Positions 28,728-36,755 of a DNA stretch of 64,000 nucleotides are shown piece by piece. Source of the DNA: Nocardia vinacea (GTDB lineage Bacteria; Actinomycetota; Actinomycetes; Mycobacteriales; Mycobacteriaceae); NCBI RefSeq assembly GCF_035920345.1, contig NZ_CP109149.1, positions 1,798,001 through 1,862,000 of the forward strand, given 5' to 3'. The notes under the pieces are model-generated. The model was not told the DNA's origin and ran no database searches. It worked only from the letters and a program-made list of their open reading frames with translations. Each line of letters opens with the position of its first letter. Position 1 is the first letter of the stretch. A program made the position numbers and the translations under genes.

Positions 28728-29804
28728 ATGTATTCACTGCTGCTGCGCCTGATGTTCCTGCTTCCGCCGGAACGCATCCACCATCTGGTGTTCACGGCCA
28801 TGCGGCTGGCCGCCCGGTTCGCGCCCTCGCGCTGGGCGATGACCAGAGTGCTGACCACCGACGATCCCATCCTGCGCAACCATGCCTTCGGCATCGACTT
28901 CCCGGCGCCGCTCGGGCTGGCCGCCGGATTCGACAAGAACGCCGACGGTGTGAACGCCTGGGCGCCATTGGGGTTCGGATTCGCCGAAATCGGCACCGTC
29001 ACCGCGCAGGCCCAGCCCGGCAATCCCGCACCGCGACTGTTCCGGCTGCCCGCCGACCGCGGTCTGATCAACCGGATGGGTTTCAACAACCACGGCGCCG
29101 CCGCCGCGGCCGAACATCTGCGCAACCGCCGCGGCGGGGTCCCGATCGGCGCGAATATCGGTAAGACGAAAATCGTCGAACCCGCCGACGCCGCCGCCGA
29201 CTATGCGGTGAGCGCGTCGCTGCTCGGGCCGCTGGCCGACTTCGTCGTCGTCAATGTCAGCTCGCCCAACACCCCCGGCCTGCGGGATCTGCAGGCCGTC
29301 GAATCCCTGCGCCCGGTCCTGCAGGCCGTCCTCGACAGCGTCGAGGTCCCGGTGCTGGTGAAAATCGCCCCCGACCTGTCCGACGACGATGTCGACGCCG
29401 TCGCCGATCTCGCGGTCGAACTCGGCCTGGCCGGGATCGTCGCCACCAACACCACCATCCGCCGCGACGGCCTGCGCACCGATGCCGCCGAGGTCGCGGC
29501 CATGGGCGCGGGTGGCCTGTCCGGGCCTCCGGTCGCCGAGCGCTCCCTGGAAGTGCTGCGCCGGCTCTACCGCCGCGTCGGCGACCATCTGGTGCTGATC
29601 TCGGTCGGCGGCATCGAAACCGCCGACCAGGCGTGGGAGCGCATCCTCGCCGGCGCCACCCTGCTGCAGGGCTACACCGGTTTCATCTACGGCGGACCGT
29701 TCTGGATGCGCCACATCCACCGTGGTATCGCCCAGCGACTGCGCGAAGCCGGTTACCACTCCATCGCCGAGGCGGTCGGCGCGGACCACGTCGCGCGTAC
29801 CTGA
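28728..29804 (+). CDS. pyrD: Dihydroorotate dehydrogenase (quinone), class 2
   Basis: A 358-residue class 2 dihydroorotate dehydrogenase, the membrane-associated, quinone-using flavoenzyme of pyrimidine synthesis. Family segments are [38 protein letters not shown] (with the catalytic Ser region), TNTTI and LISVGGI followed by GASLLQGYT-type sequence, here [13 protein letters not shown]. The N-terminal amphipathic helix for membrane contact is present. The start has a GTGAGG site. It closes the lppL/DUF5703/pyrD operon. Confidence 0.95.
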
Positions 29805-29914: not shown

Positions 29915-30890
29915 ATGGTCACCGGTGCCGAACAGTGGCATCCGCACGGCGTGGTCACCGTGATCGGTGACGCGGTCATCGATCACATCTACCGCACGGA
30001 CACCATGCCCTCCGAAGGCTCCGAGGCAAGCGGGACATTCGAGGCGCAAGTCGGCGGCAAGGGACTCAACTGGGCCGTCGCGGCGGCCCGCCTCGGCTTG
30101 CGAGTCCGCCTGGTCACCGTGATCGGAGACGACGACAGCGGCCGTCGCATCATCGAGTATCTGCGGCGCGAGAACGTCGACACCGGACTGGTCAAGGTTG
30201 TTCCCGGAACGACACCGGTTGCCGTCGTGATGGTCGATCGCAATGGCGCGGGGGCATTTATCGGCCGGGTCGACGGCGCCAAGCTCGGCATCGCGGATCT
30301 GCGCGGCGAGCAGGTTCGCGCGGCGATCGTGTCCTCGGATGCAGTGCTGCTGACATTCGAATTGCCGACCGAGGTCATCAACGAGGCACTATCGATGATC
30401 CGTGCCACGCCGCAGCGCCCACGCCTTGTGGTTCACCCCGCACCCCCTGTCGAGAATTTTCAGGACCTCGAACGTCACCTCGAGCCGATCGACTACCTGA
30501 ACGGAAGTTCGTGGGAACTCGGCGAATTGGCCGGCGACAGCGATAACGTCGGCGGCGAGCACTTCGGCGACGACCATCGCGCCCGCGCTGCTGGCACGCG
30601 GTGCATACTGCGCCTGCGAGGTGGAGGGCCTCGCCTGCCGGGTCCGCTCGGGCACCCGTCAACTCGACATTCCGGCGCGTCCGGAGGCGGTATCGGAAAC
30701 ATCCCCCGCGGCCAGCGCGGCATTCGACGCGGCGCTGGCCTACCGACTCGCGCGGACCGGGCAGCCCGCGAACCGTGCGGATTTCGAGTGGGCGACCGCC
30801 GCGATGGCGGCAACCCGGACGACCAGCCCGCTCGCCGACGGTATGCCGACCATGCACGAGATCGATCGGATCGTCGCACCGACTCGCTGA
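29915..30890 (+). pseudogene. PfkB/ribokinase-like gene broken by a frameshift
   Basis: The ATG at 29915 (GAGGGG site) opens a PfkB-fold frame with VVTVIGDAVIDHIYR, GGKGLNWAVAAARLG and ELPTEVINEAL. Near 30540 the homology moves to another frame, which continues through SPAASAAF and WATAAMAATR to a stop at 30890. The whole protein would be about 325 residues and is the paralogue of the C-terminal part of the gene at 32381. The PfkB active-site motif GAGD is absent in both. One indel, natural or a sequencing error, explains the break. Confidence 0.8.
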
Positions 30891-30959
30891 CGCAGCGTCC
30901 CGCCACGACGGCACCGGCCGCCTCCCCTCCCGGCGGCCGATGCCTCGCGGCGTCGCACG

Positions 30960-31352
30960 CTATCGGAAAACCCACGGTGTCCGGTCGGCGTGCAGCGACA
31001 TGCGGGAGTGCCCCGCGGATTCGCAGTCCGCCGGGTCGTCCTGAATTCCATTGGGACGCTGGCGTAGTCGAGCCAGCATCCGCTTCGACAGCAGGACCAC
31101 CGCCTGCTCCCAGATGATGCCGACCCGCCCGGCCAGAATGGCCGCATCGGCGTGGGCGTGCCGGTCGTGCACGATGTCCGGATCGCTGAGGATCTCGTCG
31201 AGTTCCATGCCCGCCAGCGCCTGTTCGCGGGTCAGCAGCCGATCCGGCAGCCAGCTCAGTCTCCAGACCGCGGCCCCCGACCCGGTCTGGCGGTATGCCG
31301 ACTCGGGGGTGATATCGCTGATCATGGTCCAGTCGGTGGTGTCGACGGTCAT
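30960..31352 (-). CDS. Small tandem-paralogue protein 1 (of three)
   Basis: A 130-residue protein, the longest of three adjacent paralogues. The shared core is WTMISDITPESAYR, then WRLSWLPDRLLTREQALAG, then a short acidic stretch and a helix around GIIWEQAVVLLSKRM. It has about 35 extra C-terminal residues. It has no signal peptide, membrane segment or known domain. ATG 31352 has GGAGG upstream and overlaps the stop of the next paralogue by 4 bp (ATGA), so it is the last gene of a coupled three-gene operon. Confidence 0.75.
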   Translation of the reverse strand: MTVDTTDWTMISDITPESAYRQTGSGAAVWRLSWLPDRLLTREQALAGMELDEILSDPDIVHDRHAHADAAILAGRVGIIWEQAVVLLSKRMLARLRQRPNGIQDDPADCESAGHSRMSLHADRTPWVFR

Positions 31353-31633
31353 GGGTGCCTCCGGTGTAGCAATTCGAGCACGATGAGCTCGAGGGGTATT
31401 CCGATCTGACCGGCGCAATAGAAGGCTCGTGCTCGAGCCGTCGAGTCTTGCCGGAAATCCTGGGTGCTGAAGATCTCCGCGAGATCCATCCCCGCCAAAG
31501 CTCGTTCCCGCGTCAGCAGCCGTTCGGGCAGCCAGCTCAGCCGCCACGACTTGGCCCACTTGTCCGCCAGCCGGTAGGCCGACTCCGCGGTGAGATCGCT
31601 GGTCATCGACCAGTGAGTTACGTAGATGGTCAC
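31349..31633 (-). CDS. Small tandem-paralogue protein 2 (of three)
   Basis: A 94-residue protein sharing WSMTSDLTAESAYRLADKW and WRLSWLPERLLTRERALAG with its two neighbours. It ends in a helix around QIGIPLELIVLELLHRR. GTG 31633 has an AGGAGG site and overlaps the upstream paralogue stop (GTGA); its own stop overlaps the downstream ATG. The many Trp and Arg residues and small size suggest a compact helical domain, possibly for protein contacts. Function is unknown. Confidence 0.75.
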   Translation of the reverse strand: MTIYVTHWSMTSDLTAESAYRLADKWAKSWRLSWLPERLLTRERALAGMDLAEIFSTQDFRQDSTARARAFYCAGQIGIPLELIVLELLHRRHP

Positions 31634-31917
31634 GAATGCCTCCTGTCGAGCATCCGTTGGTGCAGCGTGTGCAGTGCCTGCTGCACGGTGATACCGAGTT
31701 GATCGGCCAATGCCCGCGCGTGCGCGTCGTGGTCCGATGCCGGGTCCGGGTGGCTCAGAATCTCCTGCAATTGCATTCCGGCCCAGGCCTGTTCGCGGGT
31801 CAGCTGGTCGGGTATCCAGCTCAATCGCCATGCCGGTTCTGCGCGCCCTGCCCGCCACGCCCATTCGTCGGGCGTGACGCTGCTGGTCATCGACCGGCTG
31901 CATTCGTAGATCGTCAC
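31630..31917 (-). CDS. Small tandem-paralogue protein 3 (first in the operon)
   Basis: A 95-residue paralogue with SRSMTSSVTPDEWAWR, then WRLSWIPDQLTREQAWAG, DPASDHDAHARALADQLG and a C-terminal helix. GTG 31917 has GGAG at good spacing. It is the first gene of the three-gene set and faces the PfkB-fold gene at 32381 across a 463-bp control region. Comparison of the three copies points to two old duplications, since identity is limited to the core motifs. Function is unknown. Confidence 0.75.
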   Translation of the reverse strand: MTIYECSRSMTSSVTPDEWAWRAGRAEPAWRLSWIPDQLTREQAWAGMQLQEILSHPDPASDHDAHARALADQLGITVQQALHTLHQRMLDRRHS

Positions 31918-31968
31918 GGCTGTCTCCAGGGGTGCCAGAGCTGTCGCCGACCGCATTTTGGGTGCACT

Positions 31969-32008
31969 GAGCCCCGGTCGACCGCTGCATCGCGGTCAGC
32001 CGGGGCTC
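31969..32008. repeat. 40-bp inverted repeat upstream of the small-gene operon
   Basis: The arms GAGCCCCGG...GACCGC and GCGGTC...CCGGGGCTC pair over 9 plus 6 bp, with two mismatches and a 6-nt loop. It lies 52 bp before the first small gene. No U tract follows on either strand. It could be an attenuator or a processing structure in the leader RNA. Confidence 0.5.
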
Positions 32009-32085
32009 GCTGCTGTCGGATGGACCAGGCGATGAAGTCGGCTTGATCGGGTGAAATGTCGTCCCGGCGAACTCGATTCGTTCGC

Positions 32086-32184
32086 CTAGACCCGGGCGCG
32101 GTTCGGAACGAGCTCGGTTTCGGTACCGCCGGCCCTTGGCTCCCCGCGCCGCCGTGCGTGCCGTATCAGCAGAATCAATCTCAT
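32086..32184 (-). CDS. Possible 32-residue peptide
   Basis: A short frame with ATG 32184 preceded by GGGAGGG at 7 nt. The peptide starts MRLILLIRHARRRG and is hydrophobic, then basic. It lies in the leader of the three small genes, 169 bp before the first of them, on the same strand. It could be a leader peptide or chance. Confidence 0.25.
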   Translation of the reverse strand: MRLILLIRHARRRGEPRAGGTETELVPNRARV

Positions 32185-32240
32185 CACCAGGCCCTCCCGA
32201 GTCATCTGGCGGACGACGCTTGGTCGTCGTAACTCAGTGT

Positions 32241-32290
32241 GGCATTTGCCATTCACTACGGTCAATTGCCGTTGTAAGTTGGTAATTGCC
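32241..32290. promoter_or_regulatory. Three 10-bp repeats at exact 20-bp spacing
   Basis: GGCATTTGCC (32241), GTCAATTGCC (32261) and GGTAATTGCC (32281) recur with a 20-bp period, close to two helical turns. Each approximates the palindrome GGCAATTGCC. They lie between the divergent small-gene operon and the PfkB-fold gene, about 35 bp before a TATCGT -10 candidate at 32326. Cooperative binding of one protein on one DNA face would explain the phasing. Confidence 0.6.
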
Positions 32291-32380
32291 GGTTCACTCG
32301 ACGGCTAAACCCCGGACGATTGGCATATCGTGAGAGTGTCACAGGGAACGATCGCAGCGTCATGGAGGACAGGCCCGCCT

Positions 32381-33883
32381 ATGGTCCAGCAGGACTCACG
32401 CACGGTTGCCATCCGCAACATCCTCACCAGGCTCAGCAAACGCTCGGGGCTGAGTGCGGATCGGTTGCGCACCACGGAAATCGATGTTGCTCCCCTGCTG
32501 GATCTATCCGTCATCCGCCGGCGAGCGCAGCAGGAGGGGCTGTCGGCGGAGGAAGCCGTCTTGCCCGTGGTTCGTGATCTCGCGCGGCAACTGGATCCGA
32601 CCAATCGGTTGATCGCCGATGCCGAACTGTCGTTGGGGCTGTTGCGTGAAAAGCCCTCGGCCGGAATAGATCTCGAGCGCTTGTATGCGGCCGACCTCGG
32701 CGAGCGTCGCGTATACCTGACCGAACAGTGGCGCGGCCTGCACGAGGCGTACGGCGCCGATTTCGTACCGCCCGCACCGACTGTGCGTTCGTTGCGGGCT
32801 ACACCCGAGCGACGCGCATTTACCGAATTGGCGGCCAAGCTCGCGGCCGCGGCCGCCCATTCGACATCGAACTACAGGTTCACCCCCGAACCGAAGGTGC
32901 TGATCGCACTGCCGGACGTACAGCCGCGCCGTGGCGTGGTCACGGTCATCGGATCGGCGGTAATCGACCACATCTACCGGATCGGCCAAATTCCATCGGC
33001 GGGCAAATCCACGCCGGGCAGCTTCGAAGTGCATGCGGGCGGTAAGGGGCTCAACCGTGCGGTGGCGGCTGCGCGTCTCGGACTGCAGGCTCAGCTCATC
33101 TCCGCGGTCGGAAACGACGACGCCGGTAGGCACATCCTCAACTATTTACGCGCCGAGAATGTCGATACCGACTTGGTCAAAGTCGTTGATGGCGCCACGA
33201 CGAATGTCTCCGCGGTCATGATCACCAGTACGGGTGTTTCCAGCAAGATCGGCTGCGAGGACGACCGCATCTGGCAAGGAGCACACGTGGTGAGTGAACC
33301 ACAGTTTCGCGAGGCGCTCGCAGCCTCGGATGCGGTCGTATTGACCTTCGAGCAGCCCTCCGATGCGATCAAGGACGTGCTGGCGGCCATCGGGGAGATG
33401 GATCGTCGGCCAACGGTGGTGGTGAGTCCCTCACCGCCGATCGATGCGCCGCAATATCTCTACCAGTATTTCGGCGCTGTCGACTATCTCGTTGGCTCGA
33501 CGTGGGAACTGCGCGCATTGCTGCCCGGGGACCCGTCCGCGTCCGGGGCCGCGGTGGCGCAACGGCTGCGCAGTCTGGGTGTGCGGGGGGTCTGTGTGAT
33601 CGACGGCTTCCGTTGCATCGTCAGATCTGACGAGATCAATGCGGATATCGCAGATTTTCCTGTGGCACTGGAAGATTCGCCGGGCGCCGCAGCGGCTTTC
33701 TCCGCCGCGCTGGTGTCGAAGATCGTCGCCTCCGGTCGACCAGCCGACGAACCGGTATTCCGCTGGGCGACTGCGGCGATGGTCGCGACCCAGTCGTTCG
33801 GTGACATTCCGGACGCCATGCCATCGGTTCGGGATATCGACCGCATCGTCCACCTCGCCGGGGAAGAGTCGGCCGGCGCGTAA
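32381..33883 (+). CDS. PfkB-fold protein with extra N-terminal domain, catalytic Asp absent
   Basis: A 500-residue protein. Residues 1-175 form a helical domain I cannot name (IRNILTRLSKRSGLSADRLR, then LGERRVYLTEQWRGLHEAYG). Residues 184-495 are a PfkB/ribokinase-like domain with VVTVIGSAVIDHIYR and GGKGLNRAVAAARLG. In kinases the C-terminal signature is D-T-x-G-A-G-D; here it reads DSPGAAAAF, so the base Asp is Ala. Phosphotransfer is therefore doubtful and ligand sensing is more likely. ATG 32381 has a distant GGAGG; an upstream GTG near 32336 next to a TATCGT box is an alternative. It is divergent from the three small genes. Confidence 0.8.
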   Translation: MVQQDSRTVAIRNILTRLSKRSGLSADRLRTTEIDVAPLLDLSVIRRRAQQEGLSAEEAVLPVVRDLARQLDPTNRLIADAELSLGLLREKPSAGIDLERLYAADLGERRVYLTEQWRGLHEAYGADFVPPAPTVRSLRATPERRAFTELAAKLAAAAAHSTSNYRFTPEPKVLIALPDVQPRRGVVTVIGSAVIDHIYRIGQIPSAGKSTPGSFEVHAGGKGLNRAVAAARLGLQAQLISAVGNDDAGRHILNYLRAENVDTDLVKVVDGATTNVSAVMITSTGVSSKIGCEDDRIWQGAHVVSEPQFREALAASDAVVLTFEQPSDAIKDVLAAIGEMDRRPTVVVSPSPPIDAPQYLYQYFGAVDYLVGSTWELRALLPGDPSASGAAVAQRLRSLGVRGVCVIDGFRCIVRSDEINADIADFPVALEDSPGAAAAFSAALVSKIVASGRPADEPVFRWATAAMVATQSFGDIPDAMPSVRDIDRIVHLAGEESAGA

Positions 33884-34023
33884 CATACGCGATGGCGCGG
33901 CTCGAATAGATTTACAGCGCTGAAATCGGTGATCGAGTTACAGTTTGTCGTTCGCTGGCAGCCCGGGCTTCTCGCGCCGCAAACGGCGGCAAACCCAACT
34001 ATCCCATCGTCTTCGGAGGAGCA

Positions 34024-34740
34024 TTGACCACAGCTGTGCCGACGCTTGGTGAGACCGCCCATCGGCTCACCCGCAAGGGGCAGGATCTGCAGGTTCGTGT
34101 GATGGAAGTGGCCGGCGGCGCCGAGTATGGACATGTGCTTGTTTTCGGTGAAGCCGGCGATGGGTGTCTGGTCCGGGTGCATTCGCGGTGTCTATATGGC
34201 GAGGGTCTCGGTTCGGACGATTGCGATTGCGGGCCGGAACTCGACAAGTCTTTGGACCTGATCTGGGCTGAGGGCAGCGGTGTTCTGGTCTATCTGGAGC
34301 AAGAGGGCCGCGGTGTCGGGCTGATCGCCAAGGCGCTGGGTTACCGGGAGAGTCAGCGGTCGGGCGCGGACACCTTCACCAGCTACGAGCGGCTCGGATT
34401 CCCCGTGGACAATCGTAGCTACCTGCACGCGGCGAAAAGCCTGCAGGAACTCGGACTGGCCCGGGTGCGCCTACTCACCAACAATCCGGACAAGGCCGCC
34501 GAACTGCGCGCCGCCGGTCTGGCTGTGATCATGGAACCGCTGCTGACTCCGGTGCTCAGCGCGCGGGCTGCGGCATATCTGGATGCGAAACGCCGACGCC
34601 GCGGCCATCTCATCCCCACGAGCGACGTGCCGTGGGCTCCGGAGGTGCAACCGGTATTCAAACGTAAGAGCCGCATTTGGCGGTTCTGGACGATGCGGGG
34701 TCAGGCCCGCCGTCGGCGCACACTTCCCGCGTCCAAGTAA
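34024..34740 (+). CDS. GTP cyclohydrolase II-like protein (RibA family)
   Basis: A 238-residue RibA-type protein without a DHBP synthase domain. The zinc site is kept: HSRCLYGEGLGS followed by DCDCG. Nucleotide-binding EQEGRGVGL and LLTNNPDK are present. The usual DTVEANxxLGF segment instead reads DTFTSYERLGF, so the active site is altered near the GTP-binding Glu. A basic 35-residue tail follows. It may open the GTP ring for a product other than riboflavin, or be a standard paralogue. The TTG start has GGAGGA 4 nt upstream. It follows the PfkB-fold gene by 140 bp. Confidence 0.8.
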   Translation: MTTAVPTLGETAHRLTRKGQDLQVRVMEVAGGAEYGHVLVFGEAGDGCLVRVHSRCLYGEGLGSDDCDCGPELDKSLDLIWAEGSGVLVYLEQEGRGVGLIAKALGYRESQRSGADTFTSYERLGFPVDNRSYLHAAKSLQELGLARVRLLTNNPDKAAELRAAGLAVIMEPLLTPVLSARAAAYLDAKRRRRGHLIPTSDVPWAPEVQPVFKRKSRIWRFWTMRGQARRRRTLPASK

Positions 34741-34922: not shown

Positions 34923-36755
34923 ATGACGACAACAGAAATCGGTTTCGCGCACGAATCCGGCAAGACGGTGTACACGGTGCCGGAGGCATTCCAGGAGACC
35001 GTGAAGTTACGACCGGATCAGGTCGCGTTGCGGACGGTCGGCGGTACCACGGAGATCAGCTGGCGCGAATACGGTGAGCGGGTGCGCACGCTGGCGGCGG
35101 GGTTGGCCGGCCTGGGCGTCGGCCACGGCGACAGCGTCGGCATCATGCTCACCAACCGGCCCGAGTTCAATCTGATCGACACGGCCGCACTGCATTTGGG
35201 CGCCACCCCGTTCTCGATCTACAACACCAGCTCTCCCGAGCAGATCAAGCATCTGTTCACCAATGCGGAGAACAAGGTGGTGATCACCGAGCGTGCCTTC
35301 CTCGACGTCATCAACGGCGCGGGCGTCGATCTCGAGCACATCGTGGTGGTGGACGGTCCGGCCGCCGATACGGTCGGCCTGGCCGACCTCGAAGCGAATC
35401 CGGCCGCCGACTTCGATTTCGACGCCGCCTGGCAGGCGGTCACCCCCGACGATCTGGCCACGCTGATCTACACCTCGGGCACTACCGGCCCGTCCAAGGG
35501 TGTGGAGATCACCCACCGCAATGTGCTGGCCCAGATCATCGCGCTGGTCAACGGCCCACTGCGGGTCGGCTTCGACGACCGCGCCATCTCCTACCTGCCC
35601 GCCGCGCACGTCGCCGACCGCATTTCCGGCCATGCCATCAGCCTGCTCACCGGCATCCTGATCACCTGCGTGCCGGATCCGCGCGAGATCGCCGCCGCGC
35701 TGCCCGACGCACACCCCACCATCTTCTTCGGTGTGCCCCGGGTGTGGCAGAAGATCAAGGCCGGTATCGATGGCAAGCTCGCCACCGAAGCGAGCCCGGT
35801 GAAGAAGGCGCTGGCGAACTGGGCCATCAATACCGGCATCGCGGCCGCACGCGCCGATCTGGCGGGTAAGGGCCGCAGTCCGGTGCTCGCCGCGCAGTAC
35901 AAGGTCGCCGACGCGCTGGTGCTGTCGAAACTGCGGGCCGCGCTCGGCCTGGACAACCTCAAGGTCGCCGCCTCCGGTGCCGCCGCGATCCCGGCCGAAA
36001 CCCTCGAATACTTCCTCGGACTCGGGTTCACCGTCAGCGAGGTGTGGGGTATGTCGGAGACCACCGGCGTGGCCACCTACACCGAATTGGCCAAGCCGCG
36101 GCCGGGTTCGGTCGGCCGGGCCGTCGAGGGTCTCGAGCTACGGCTCGGCGAGGACGGCGAACTGCTGGTGCGTGGCGCGATCGTCACCCCGGGCTACCGC
36201 AAGCAGCCCGATAAGACCAAGGAAGCGCTCGACGCCGACGGCTGGCTGGCCACCGGTGACGTCGCCACCATCGATGCCGACGGCTATGTGCGCATCGTGG
36301 ATCGCAAGAAGGAACTGATCATCAACGAGTCGGGTAAGAACATCTCCCCGACCAATATCGAGAACGCGGTCAAGGCGGCGTCCTCGCTGGTCGGTCAGGT
36401 GGTGGCGATCGGTGAGGCCAAACCGTTCATCTCCGCGCTGATCGTGCTCGATCCGGACACCGCCGCTATCCGGGCCAAGGAATTCGACACGCCCGCAGAC
36501 GATTCGGCCGCGCTGGCCACCCGCAAGGAGATTCTGGACGAGGTGCTCGCGGCGGTCGTCGCGGGTAACCGCAAGCTGTCGCGGGTCGAGCAGATCAAGC
36601 GGTTCACCGTGGTCGGCGAGCCGTGGGAGCCGGGCGGTGACGAGCTGACCCCGACGATGAAGCTCAAGCGTAACCCGATCGCCGCGAAGTACGCCGAGCA
36701 GATCGCCTCGCTGTACACCACGCCGCTGCCCGAATCGGTGGTGAACGTCTCATAA
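34923..36755 (+). CDS. Long-chain fatty-acid-CoA ligase, FadD15-like
   Basis: A 610-residue ANL-superfamily ligase. The P-loop is YTSGTTGPSKG, the adenylate segment is WGMSETTG and the C-terminal hinge and lysine region is IVDRKKELI with SGKNISP. It should form acyl-CoA from long-chain acids with ATP. It is a clear paralogue of the gene at 7819 over its whole length. ATG 34923 is chosen (GGGAAG site); an ATG at 34863 in frame would add 20 basic residues. It ends in a strong terminator. Confidence 0.9.
   Translation: MTTTEIGFAHESGKTVYTVPEAFQETVKLRPDQVALRTVGGTTEISWREYGERVRTLAAGLAGLGVGHGDSVGIMLTNRPEFNLIDTAALHLGATPFSIYNTSSPEQIKHLFTNAENKVVITERAFLDVINGAGVDLEHIVVVDGPAADTVGLADLEANPAADFDFDAAWQAVTPDDLATLIYTSGTTGPSKGVEITHRNVLAQIIALVNGPLRVGFDDRAISYLPAAHVADRISGHAISLLTGILITCVPDPREIAAALPDAHPTIFFGVPRVWQKIKAGIDGKLATEASPVKKALANWAINTGIAAARADLAGKGRSPVLAAQYKVADALVLSKLRAALGLDNLKVAASGAAAIPAETLEYFLGLGFTVSEVWGMSETTGVATYTELAKPRPGSVGRAVEGLELRLGEDGELLVRGAIVTPGYRKQPDKTKEALDADGWLATGDVATIDADGYVRIVDRKKELIINESGKNISPTNIENAVKAASSLVGQVVAIGEAKPFISALIVLDPDTAAIRAKEFDTPADDSAALATRKEILDEVLAAVVAGNRKLSRVEQIKRFTVVGEPWEPGGDELTPTMKLKRNPIAAKYAEQIASLYTTPLPESVVNVS

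Follow-up and report, generated by a model that had tools for sequence, protein, structure and literature searches.

An extended PfkB-like protein and a divergent GTP cyclohydrolase II as a conserved gene pair, and possible sensor locus, beside pyrD in Nocardia

Genes and features of the locus

Here we describe a locus of Nocardia vinacea in which two proteins are encoded side by side, downstream of a triple operator-like element: Next-PfkB, a ribokinase-like protein of the PfkB family that carries a long extension at its N-terminus, and RibA2, a divergent GTP cyclohydrolase II. The stretch analyzed, called the window throughout, comprises 64,000 nucleotides (positions 1,798,001 to 1,862,000 of contig NZ_CP109149.1) of a 10.36 Mb genome assembled as a single contig. 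A preliminary description of this DNA had placed an accessory block between pyrD and a PEBP/M20 gene pair, genes that are presumably adjacent, or nearly so, in Mycobacterium tuberculosis. All of the genes named in that description are found in place, in the order pyrD, PfkB-A, three genes for small proteins (SMALL), Next-PfkB, RibA2, an AMP-binding ligase, and then PEBP and M20. Two further features, the triple element (32241-32290) and a short open reading frame (micro-ORF, 32086-32187), go beyond it. In window coordinates, the features are:

28728..29804, + strand: pyrD, which borders the conserved site on the left (PF01180, E 1.4e-88)
29915..30890, + strand: PfkB-A, ribokinase-like second copy without the N-terminal extension (PF00294, E 3.8e-22, first part)
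30960..31352, - strand: SMALL paralogue S3, 130 amino acids
31349..31633, - strand: SMALL paralogue S2, 94 amino acids, 4-bp overlap with S3
31630..31917, - strand: SMALL paralogue S1, 95 amino acids from a GTG start, 4-bp overlap with S2
32086..32187, - strand: micro-ORF, 33 amino acids, Arg-rich, with a Shine-Dalgarno-like GGGAGGG; first gene past the operator on the SMALL side
32241..32290, no strand: triple operator-like element, sites at 32241-32250, 32261-32270 and 32281-32290, consensus GGCAATTGCC, 20-bp spacing
32381..33883, + strand: Next-PfkB, 500 amino acids, helical N-terminal extension of ~180 amino acids and ribokinase-fold domain (PF00294, E 6.4e-29)
34024..34740, + strand: RibA2, divergent GTP cyclohydrolase II that starts with TTG (34024) or ATG (34036) (PF00925, E 7.9e-39)
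34923..36755, + strand: gene for an AMP-binding, acyl-CoA ligase-like protein, which usually borders the site on the right (PF00501, synteny)

Both of the PfkB-like genes reported earlier were located, but PfkB-A is not intact: a frameshift near 30540-30580 puts its C-terminal half in another frame. The close relative G117 (locus L065) carries an intact copy of 324 amino acids. The three small genes are indeed paralogues, with 45 and 48% identity to the first, and match no Pfam or NCBIfam family.

Next-PfkB and RibA2 as a conserved pair

Among 118 Nocardia genomes, the Next-PfkB extension was found in 99 (including G082, where it is in fragments) and RibA2 in 91, the latter with a relative as query at E<=1e-40. 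Both are present in 89 genomes, Next-PfkB alone in ten, RibA2 alone in two (G056 and G092) and neither in 17, a co-occurrence with a Fisher P of 8e-12 without correction for kinship. In all 89 genomes with both, the genes lie no more than 6 kb apart, and in 87 of these RibA2 follows Next-PfkB on the same strand. Among 348 genomes searched at the level of the order, four from another family contain Next-PfkB, whereas a class-level search of 394 genomes, a limited first look, found it in Nocardia only. A fifth candidate outside the genus, G293, was rejected, as its match is weak and its map contains no PfkB gene. RibA2 adjoins Next-PfkB at three of the four loci (L151-L153, not L154), and SMALL is present at none. 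Moreover, at least 80 RibA2 loci occur in named genomes, with Next-PfkB directly upstream in all seven that were mapped. These seven include Actinophytocola oryzae and Amycolatopsis sp. MtRt-6, neither of which has SMALL at that place. Besides L151-L153, the loci with the pair outside Nocardia include L175 (Actinophytocola) and L180, and L151 appears to belong to Lentzea. At L151, L153 and L180 the gene order of the pair overlaps.

Since the pair occurs without SMALL outside Nocardia, Next-PfkB and RibA2 are the core of the module, and SMALL is an addition on the Nocardia side. The preliminary description had instead put the small family and the extended PfkB protein at the center, and held that small genes occurring widely without the PfkB gene would count against this. 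In part this is what we see, with SMALL matches, some of them weak, in all 118 Nocardia genomes against 99 for Next-PfkB, and SMALL genes in other contexts. The proposal of an undescribed system in that description holds, in that this conserved accessory module is apparently undescribed in the literature searched.

Maps were made of 36 Next-PfkB loci of Nocardia, that of the window among them; five (L096, L097, L098, L103 and L104) were selected by a SMALL match and the others by Next-PfkB, and L168 holds a fragment only. By our reading, all 36 loci have pyrD, 35 have SMALL (L166 being the exception) and 32 have RibA2, and no other gene is constant beyond the flanks and SMALL, unmatched neighbors being unannotated. 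At L168, in G082, the fragmented Next-PfkB adjoins a large gene, called at 1134 amino acids. For the 17 genomes without Next-PfkB represented by L259-L276, no SMALL, PfkB or RibA2 gene was called within ~1.5 kb on each side of pyrD, in stretches that are shorter at contig ends, and a gene of ~395 amino acids adjoins pyrD in several.

Next-PfkB shares the ribokinase fold and several sugar-site residues with E. coli RbsK, a member of the ribokinase/PfkB family, but has lost the catalytic aspartate and several nucleotide-site residues and has gained the extension and a cysteine pair. We aligned 121 Next-PfkB proteins, including that of the window, and placed E. coli ribokinase positions by alignment, taking Asp255 to be the catalytic residue and the other aligned residues to have their presumed ribokinase roles. 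The Asp255 equivalent, in the GAGD motif, is Ala in 76 proteins (the window's among them), Ser in 14, Glu in 14, Gly in 10, Asp in four, Val in one and Pro in one, with one unlisted; one of the four with Asp (P0065) is an alignment artefact, and all four proteins of L151-L154 carry Glu. Equivalents of Asp16 (119), Gly42 (121), Lys43 (121) and Glu143 (116) are kept in the sugar site, including the second Gly and the Lys of the N-terminal GGK motif in every protein, whereas those of Asn14 and Asn187 are lost in all 121, of Thr223 in 106 and of Gly225 in 90. The cysteines C405 (120/121) and C412 (112/121) are nearly invariant; they sit on neighboring strands where ribokinases bind nucleotide, and the pair could serve redox or metal sensing. 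Four intact PfkB copies without the extension likewise lack the catalytic Asp, judged by eye. The predicted structure (mean pLDDT 89.4, pTM 0.67) consists of the helical extension, a poorly predicted linker at 160-180 and a ribokinase domain. It matches ribokinase 1rka in the PDB at E 3.1e-23, the matches listed being mostly ribokinases.

RibA2 presents a different picture. Active sites throughout the block had been described as degenerate, which is true of the PfkB protein but not of this enzyme: as in GTP cyclohydrolase II (RibA), the zinc-binding cysteines, the QEGR motif and the equivalents of Asp126 and Arg128 are present, and a difference from E. coli RibA is DTF-x-SY in place of DTVEAN. 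In 46 aligned sequences the three cysteines are kept in 45, 45 and 44, and the Asp126 and Arg128 equivalents in all 46, residues whose roles, like that of Tyr105, we take to be those in GTP cyclohydrolase II. The Tyr105 equivalent varies (Tyr in 29, including the window protein, Leu in 13, other residues in four). All 11 loci with two RibA2 copies (L067, L069, L073, L074, L078, L080, L083, L096, L098, L104 and L167), read from the alignment rows, combine one copy of the Tyr105 type with one that has another residue there (Leu in 10 loci, Asn in one), and 18 of 24 single copies have Tyr; the two types may stop at different products. RibA2 scores 151.9 bits against NCBIfam PRK00393 (cut-off 148), above the PF00925 cut-off and below the equivalog cut-off of TIGR00505, and three more PF00925 copies in this genome each score above it. 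RibA2 likely acts on GTP. Both genes are under purifying selection, with ratios of nonsynonymous to synonymous change (dN/dS) of ~0.10 against G117 and 0.2-0.4 against four other genomes.

The two genes have also been replaced together. Between the window and G009, identity is 94-99% in the immediate flanks and 88-100% in SMALL, the micro-ORF and the element, but 58-79% in Next-PfkB and RibA2 and 54-66% over most of PfkB-A. Synonymous divergence (dS) between G009 and G117 is 0.07-0.16 for flank genes and 0.03-0.12 for SMALL, against 0.98 for Next-PfkB and 0.95 for RibA2, whereas between G009 and G045 it is 0.31 and 0.39 for the pair and 0.19-0.40 for the flanks. Therefore the window and G117 carry a different allele of the pair, exchanged with SMALL and the operator left in place. 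In G112/G080 the replacement includes SMALL (dS 0.9-1.2, against 0.15-0.53 in the flanks), for G073/G011 and G050/G107 the evidence for a divergent block is sequence identity alone, and no replacement was seen for L079/L160 (G016/G420). Across 24 loci, the partial correlation given flank distances is 0.63 for Next-PfkB with RibA2 (none of 2000 permutations as high), 0.22 for Next-PfkB with SMALL (103/2000) and 0.19 for RibA2 with SMALL (156/2000).

The triple element and the divergent genes

A shared control region between the divergent genes had been proposed, and between Next-PfkB and the SMALL side we find three sites, GGCATTTGCC, GTCAATTGCC and GGTAATTGCC, 20 bp apart. We scored GGCAATTGCC triples in 49 upstream regions against 200 dinucleotide shuffles of each. 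No shuffle is as good in 41 regions, L151-L153 among them. The eight others comprise L075 and L104_9129 (one shuffle as good in each), L177 of N. carnea (33), two regions that precede second copies (174 and 199) and three from outside Nocardia, L154 (1), L180 (2) and L175 (89). The element, Next-PfkB and RibA2 are thus common to Nocardia and L151-L153, and the divergent output differs: at L151-L153 the element faces a lipoprotein-like gene (with an OmpA domain in L152, the one locus tested for it). At these loci and L180, this gene and one for a protein of 280-289 amino acids are divergent to the pair; the latter, in L152, has no Pfam family.

Exact matches to a pair of sites occur in this genome at this locus only, and two other places match with two mismatches. 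A scan of the 118 genomes, which counts palindromic sites on both strands, gave 353 matches against 31 for a reversed control. At least one match is present in 81 of 99 genomes with Next-PfkB and 8 of 19 without it (P 7e-4), and at least three in 66 and one of these, respectively. The SMALL genes of 11 loci in other contexts have no such triple (best score 19).

The micro-ORF was sought as the first Shine-Dalgarno-led start beyond the element, without a sequence filter, in 40 regions with an element score >=22. The resulting frame has 29-37 amino acids in 26 regions, 42 in one and 70 in another; seven regions have none, and in five it runs past the region, being the lipoprotein-like gene at L151-L153 and SMALL at L170 and L182. 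The start lies mostly 46-54 nucleotides past the element. The micro-ORF is presumably translated. Its Arg-rich sequence changes fast (pN 0.44, pS 0.49, from 25 sequences that were selected for an Arg motif).

SMALL itself is predicted to fold into a beta part and three helices, and the model has no convincing match in the PDB; 48 relatives gave only scattered Pfam matches, of one or two members each. At six mapped loci (L088-L092 and L099; Pfam on L088) SMALL and an operon with XRE, aminotransferase and alanine dehydrogenase-like genes are divergently arranged. At L099 (G000:C1:5661000-5679900) the aminotransferase is of class I/II, and the other five Nocardia genomes have the same arrangement; SMALL with this operon is a second small conserved module. 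SMALL also lies near XRE-DUF5753/DUF397-type genes at L095 and L100 (Pfam on L100), and at L100 it adjoins an XRE-DUF397 pair. Such pairs in Streptomyces (PMC10364602) resemble the present locus in having a small protein beside a regulator, but Next-PfkB lacks an XRE domain, and DUF397 is absent from SMALL. Distant relatives at L157-L159 are near genes for a RepSA replication initiator, FtsK-like proteins and integrases (Pfam on L158 and L159 only).

A possible sensor locus and its alternatives

We suggest, with a probability of about 0.38, that this is an autoregulated sensor locus, in which a ribokinase-derived sensor-regulator without catalytic activity is paired with the synthase of a GTP-derived metabolite. 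Because the sugar site is partly kept and the catalytic base is lost, a sensor-regulator with RibA2 as its partner is the simplest reading. RibA2 would be an active enzyme of the GTP cyclohydrolase II type that converts GTP to a ribosylamino-pyrimidine phosphate, and the remaining sugar-site residues of Next-PfkB would bind a ribosyl compound, most likely this product or a derivative. Through its helical extension, its dimer or both, Next-PfkB might act at the three GGCAATTGCC sites, and binding of the ligand would switch, in one direction or the other, its own operon and the divergent operon of the micro-ORF and SMALL, the presumed outputs. Enzyme and receptor would co-evolve and could be exchanged as a unit, with the operator and the output genes left in place.

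Several observations weigh against this model. RibA2 is absent from 10 of 99 Next-PfkB genomes at E<=1e-40, and three distant Next-PfkB members retain the catalytic Asp. Of six loci outside Nocardia, three have an element that passes the shuffle test, with L154, L180 and L175 falling short. Some Next-PfkB genomes (18/99) lack a pattern match and eight of the 19 others have at least one; G017 (L087) has a clear element beside SMALL without the pair, and at L085, likewise with SMALL alone, the element scores only 21. No helix-turn-helix (HTH) family was detected in 22 Next-PfkB members at E<=10, the extension not having been searched or folded alone, and an HHalign comparison with one XRE family was negative. 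Finally, a single recombination tract can replace adjacent genes together without functional coupling.

Precedents for such a sensor exist. Kinase-fold regulators with an HTH architecture include the ROK repressors and the HTH-PfkB proteins, for example PRK09954. Plant FLN1 and FLN2 are complex subunits for which no RibA partner or operator is known. Yeast Gal3p is a sugar-kinase-like regulator (PMC3409070). Like Gal3p, the ROK repressors and PRK09954, Next-PfkB is proposed to use a kinase fold as a ligand sensor in gene control, but those proteins belong to other kinase families or bear an HTH, and its extension shows no known HTH.

Alternatively, RibA2 and Next-PfkB could be enzymes of a small biosynthetic pathway to a GTP-derived metabolite, with Next-PfkB using a non-standard catalytic residue or binding an intermediate. 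The intact RibA2 residues, the overlapping gene order at L151, L153 and L180 and the Glu of L151-L154 are consistent with this, as is the Tyr105-type/non-Tyr pairing at the two-copy loci, as if two steps were divided. However, 100 of 121 proteins have Ala, Ser or Gly at the catalytic position, the equivalents of Thr223, Asn187 and mostly Gly225 are also gone, and beyond the flanks and SMALL no further gene is constant in the mapped Nocardia loci, within the annotation noted above; we consider such a pathway rather doubtful.

A bolder form of the sensor model would make the locus a nucleotide-pyrimidine signaling system, in which RibA2 is dedicated to making a GTP-derived signal, Next-PfkB, as a dead ribokinase, is the matched receptor and transcription switch, and synthase-receptor allele sets are exchanged between the conserved operator and flanks, much as in pherotype switching in peptide quorum sensing. 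Outputs would be SMALL and the Arg-rich micropeptide in Nocardia and the lipoprotein in Lentzea-type genomes. We regard this as improbable on present evidence.

It is also improbable that the operator serves an unlinked regulator and that Next-PfkB modulates, or is a scaffold for, either this regulator or RibA2. In favor are the lack of a detected DNA-binding domain, the XRE regulators beside SMALL elsewhere, the element at L087 and the precedent of FLN1 and FLN2 (PMC3409070), PfkB-type proteins that are tied to transcription as part of the plastid RNA polymerase complex and that our profile search matched. At L151-L153, however, the element stays with Next-PfkB though the divergent gene differs, and since exact pair matches in this genome are confined to this locus, a local regulator suits better.

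A conflict, kin-recognition or defence locus, with the micropeptide or SMALL as effector and the swapped pair giving specificity, is quite unlikely. The divergent blocks between conserved flanks in several genome pairs, the RepSA, FtsK-like and integrase genes near distant SMALL relatives and the fast-changing micro-ORF would fit, but every one of the 36 mapped Nocardia loci lies next to pyrD, no SMALL relative was confirmed in viral contigs, and six proteins compared with PADLOC-DB gave a single 12-bit match at E 0.021. Thus, of the functions first proposed for the block, sensing or a GTP-derived compound is plausible, whereas defence finds no backing here. Least probable of all is a decaying, functionless remnant of a riboflavin-related operon, to which the PfkB-A frameshift, the genomes lacking the pair and the dN/dS of S1 and S2 against G117 (1.5 and 1.0, on very few changes) might point, but which conflicts with the conserved element and the purifying selection on the pair.

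Single cases of enzymes that became sensors are known, whereas here an apparently dead ribokinase lineage is tied to a second, intact-looking enzyme, one of the chemistry of riboflavin entry, and to a sharply defined DNA element. Proteins that databases name 'PfkB family carbohydrate kinase' thereby become the subject of a testable regulator hypothesis, and the question is raised of why these actinobacteria retain extra copies of GTP cyclohydrolase II.

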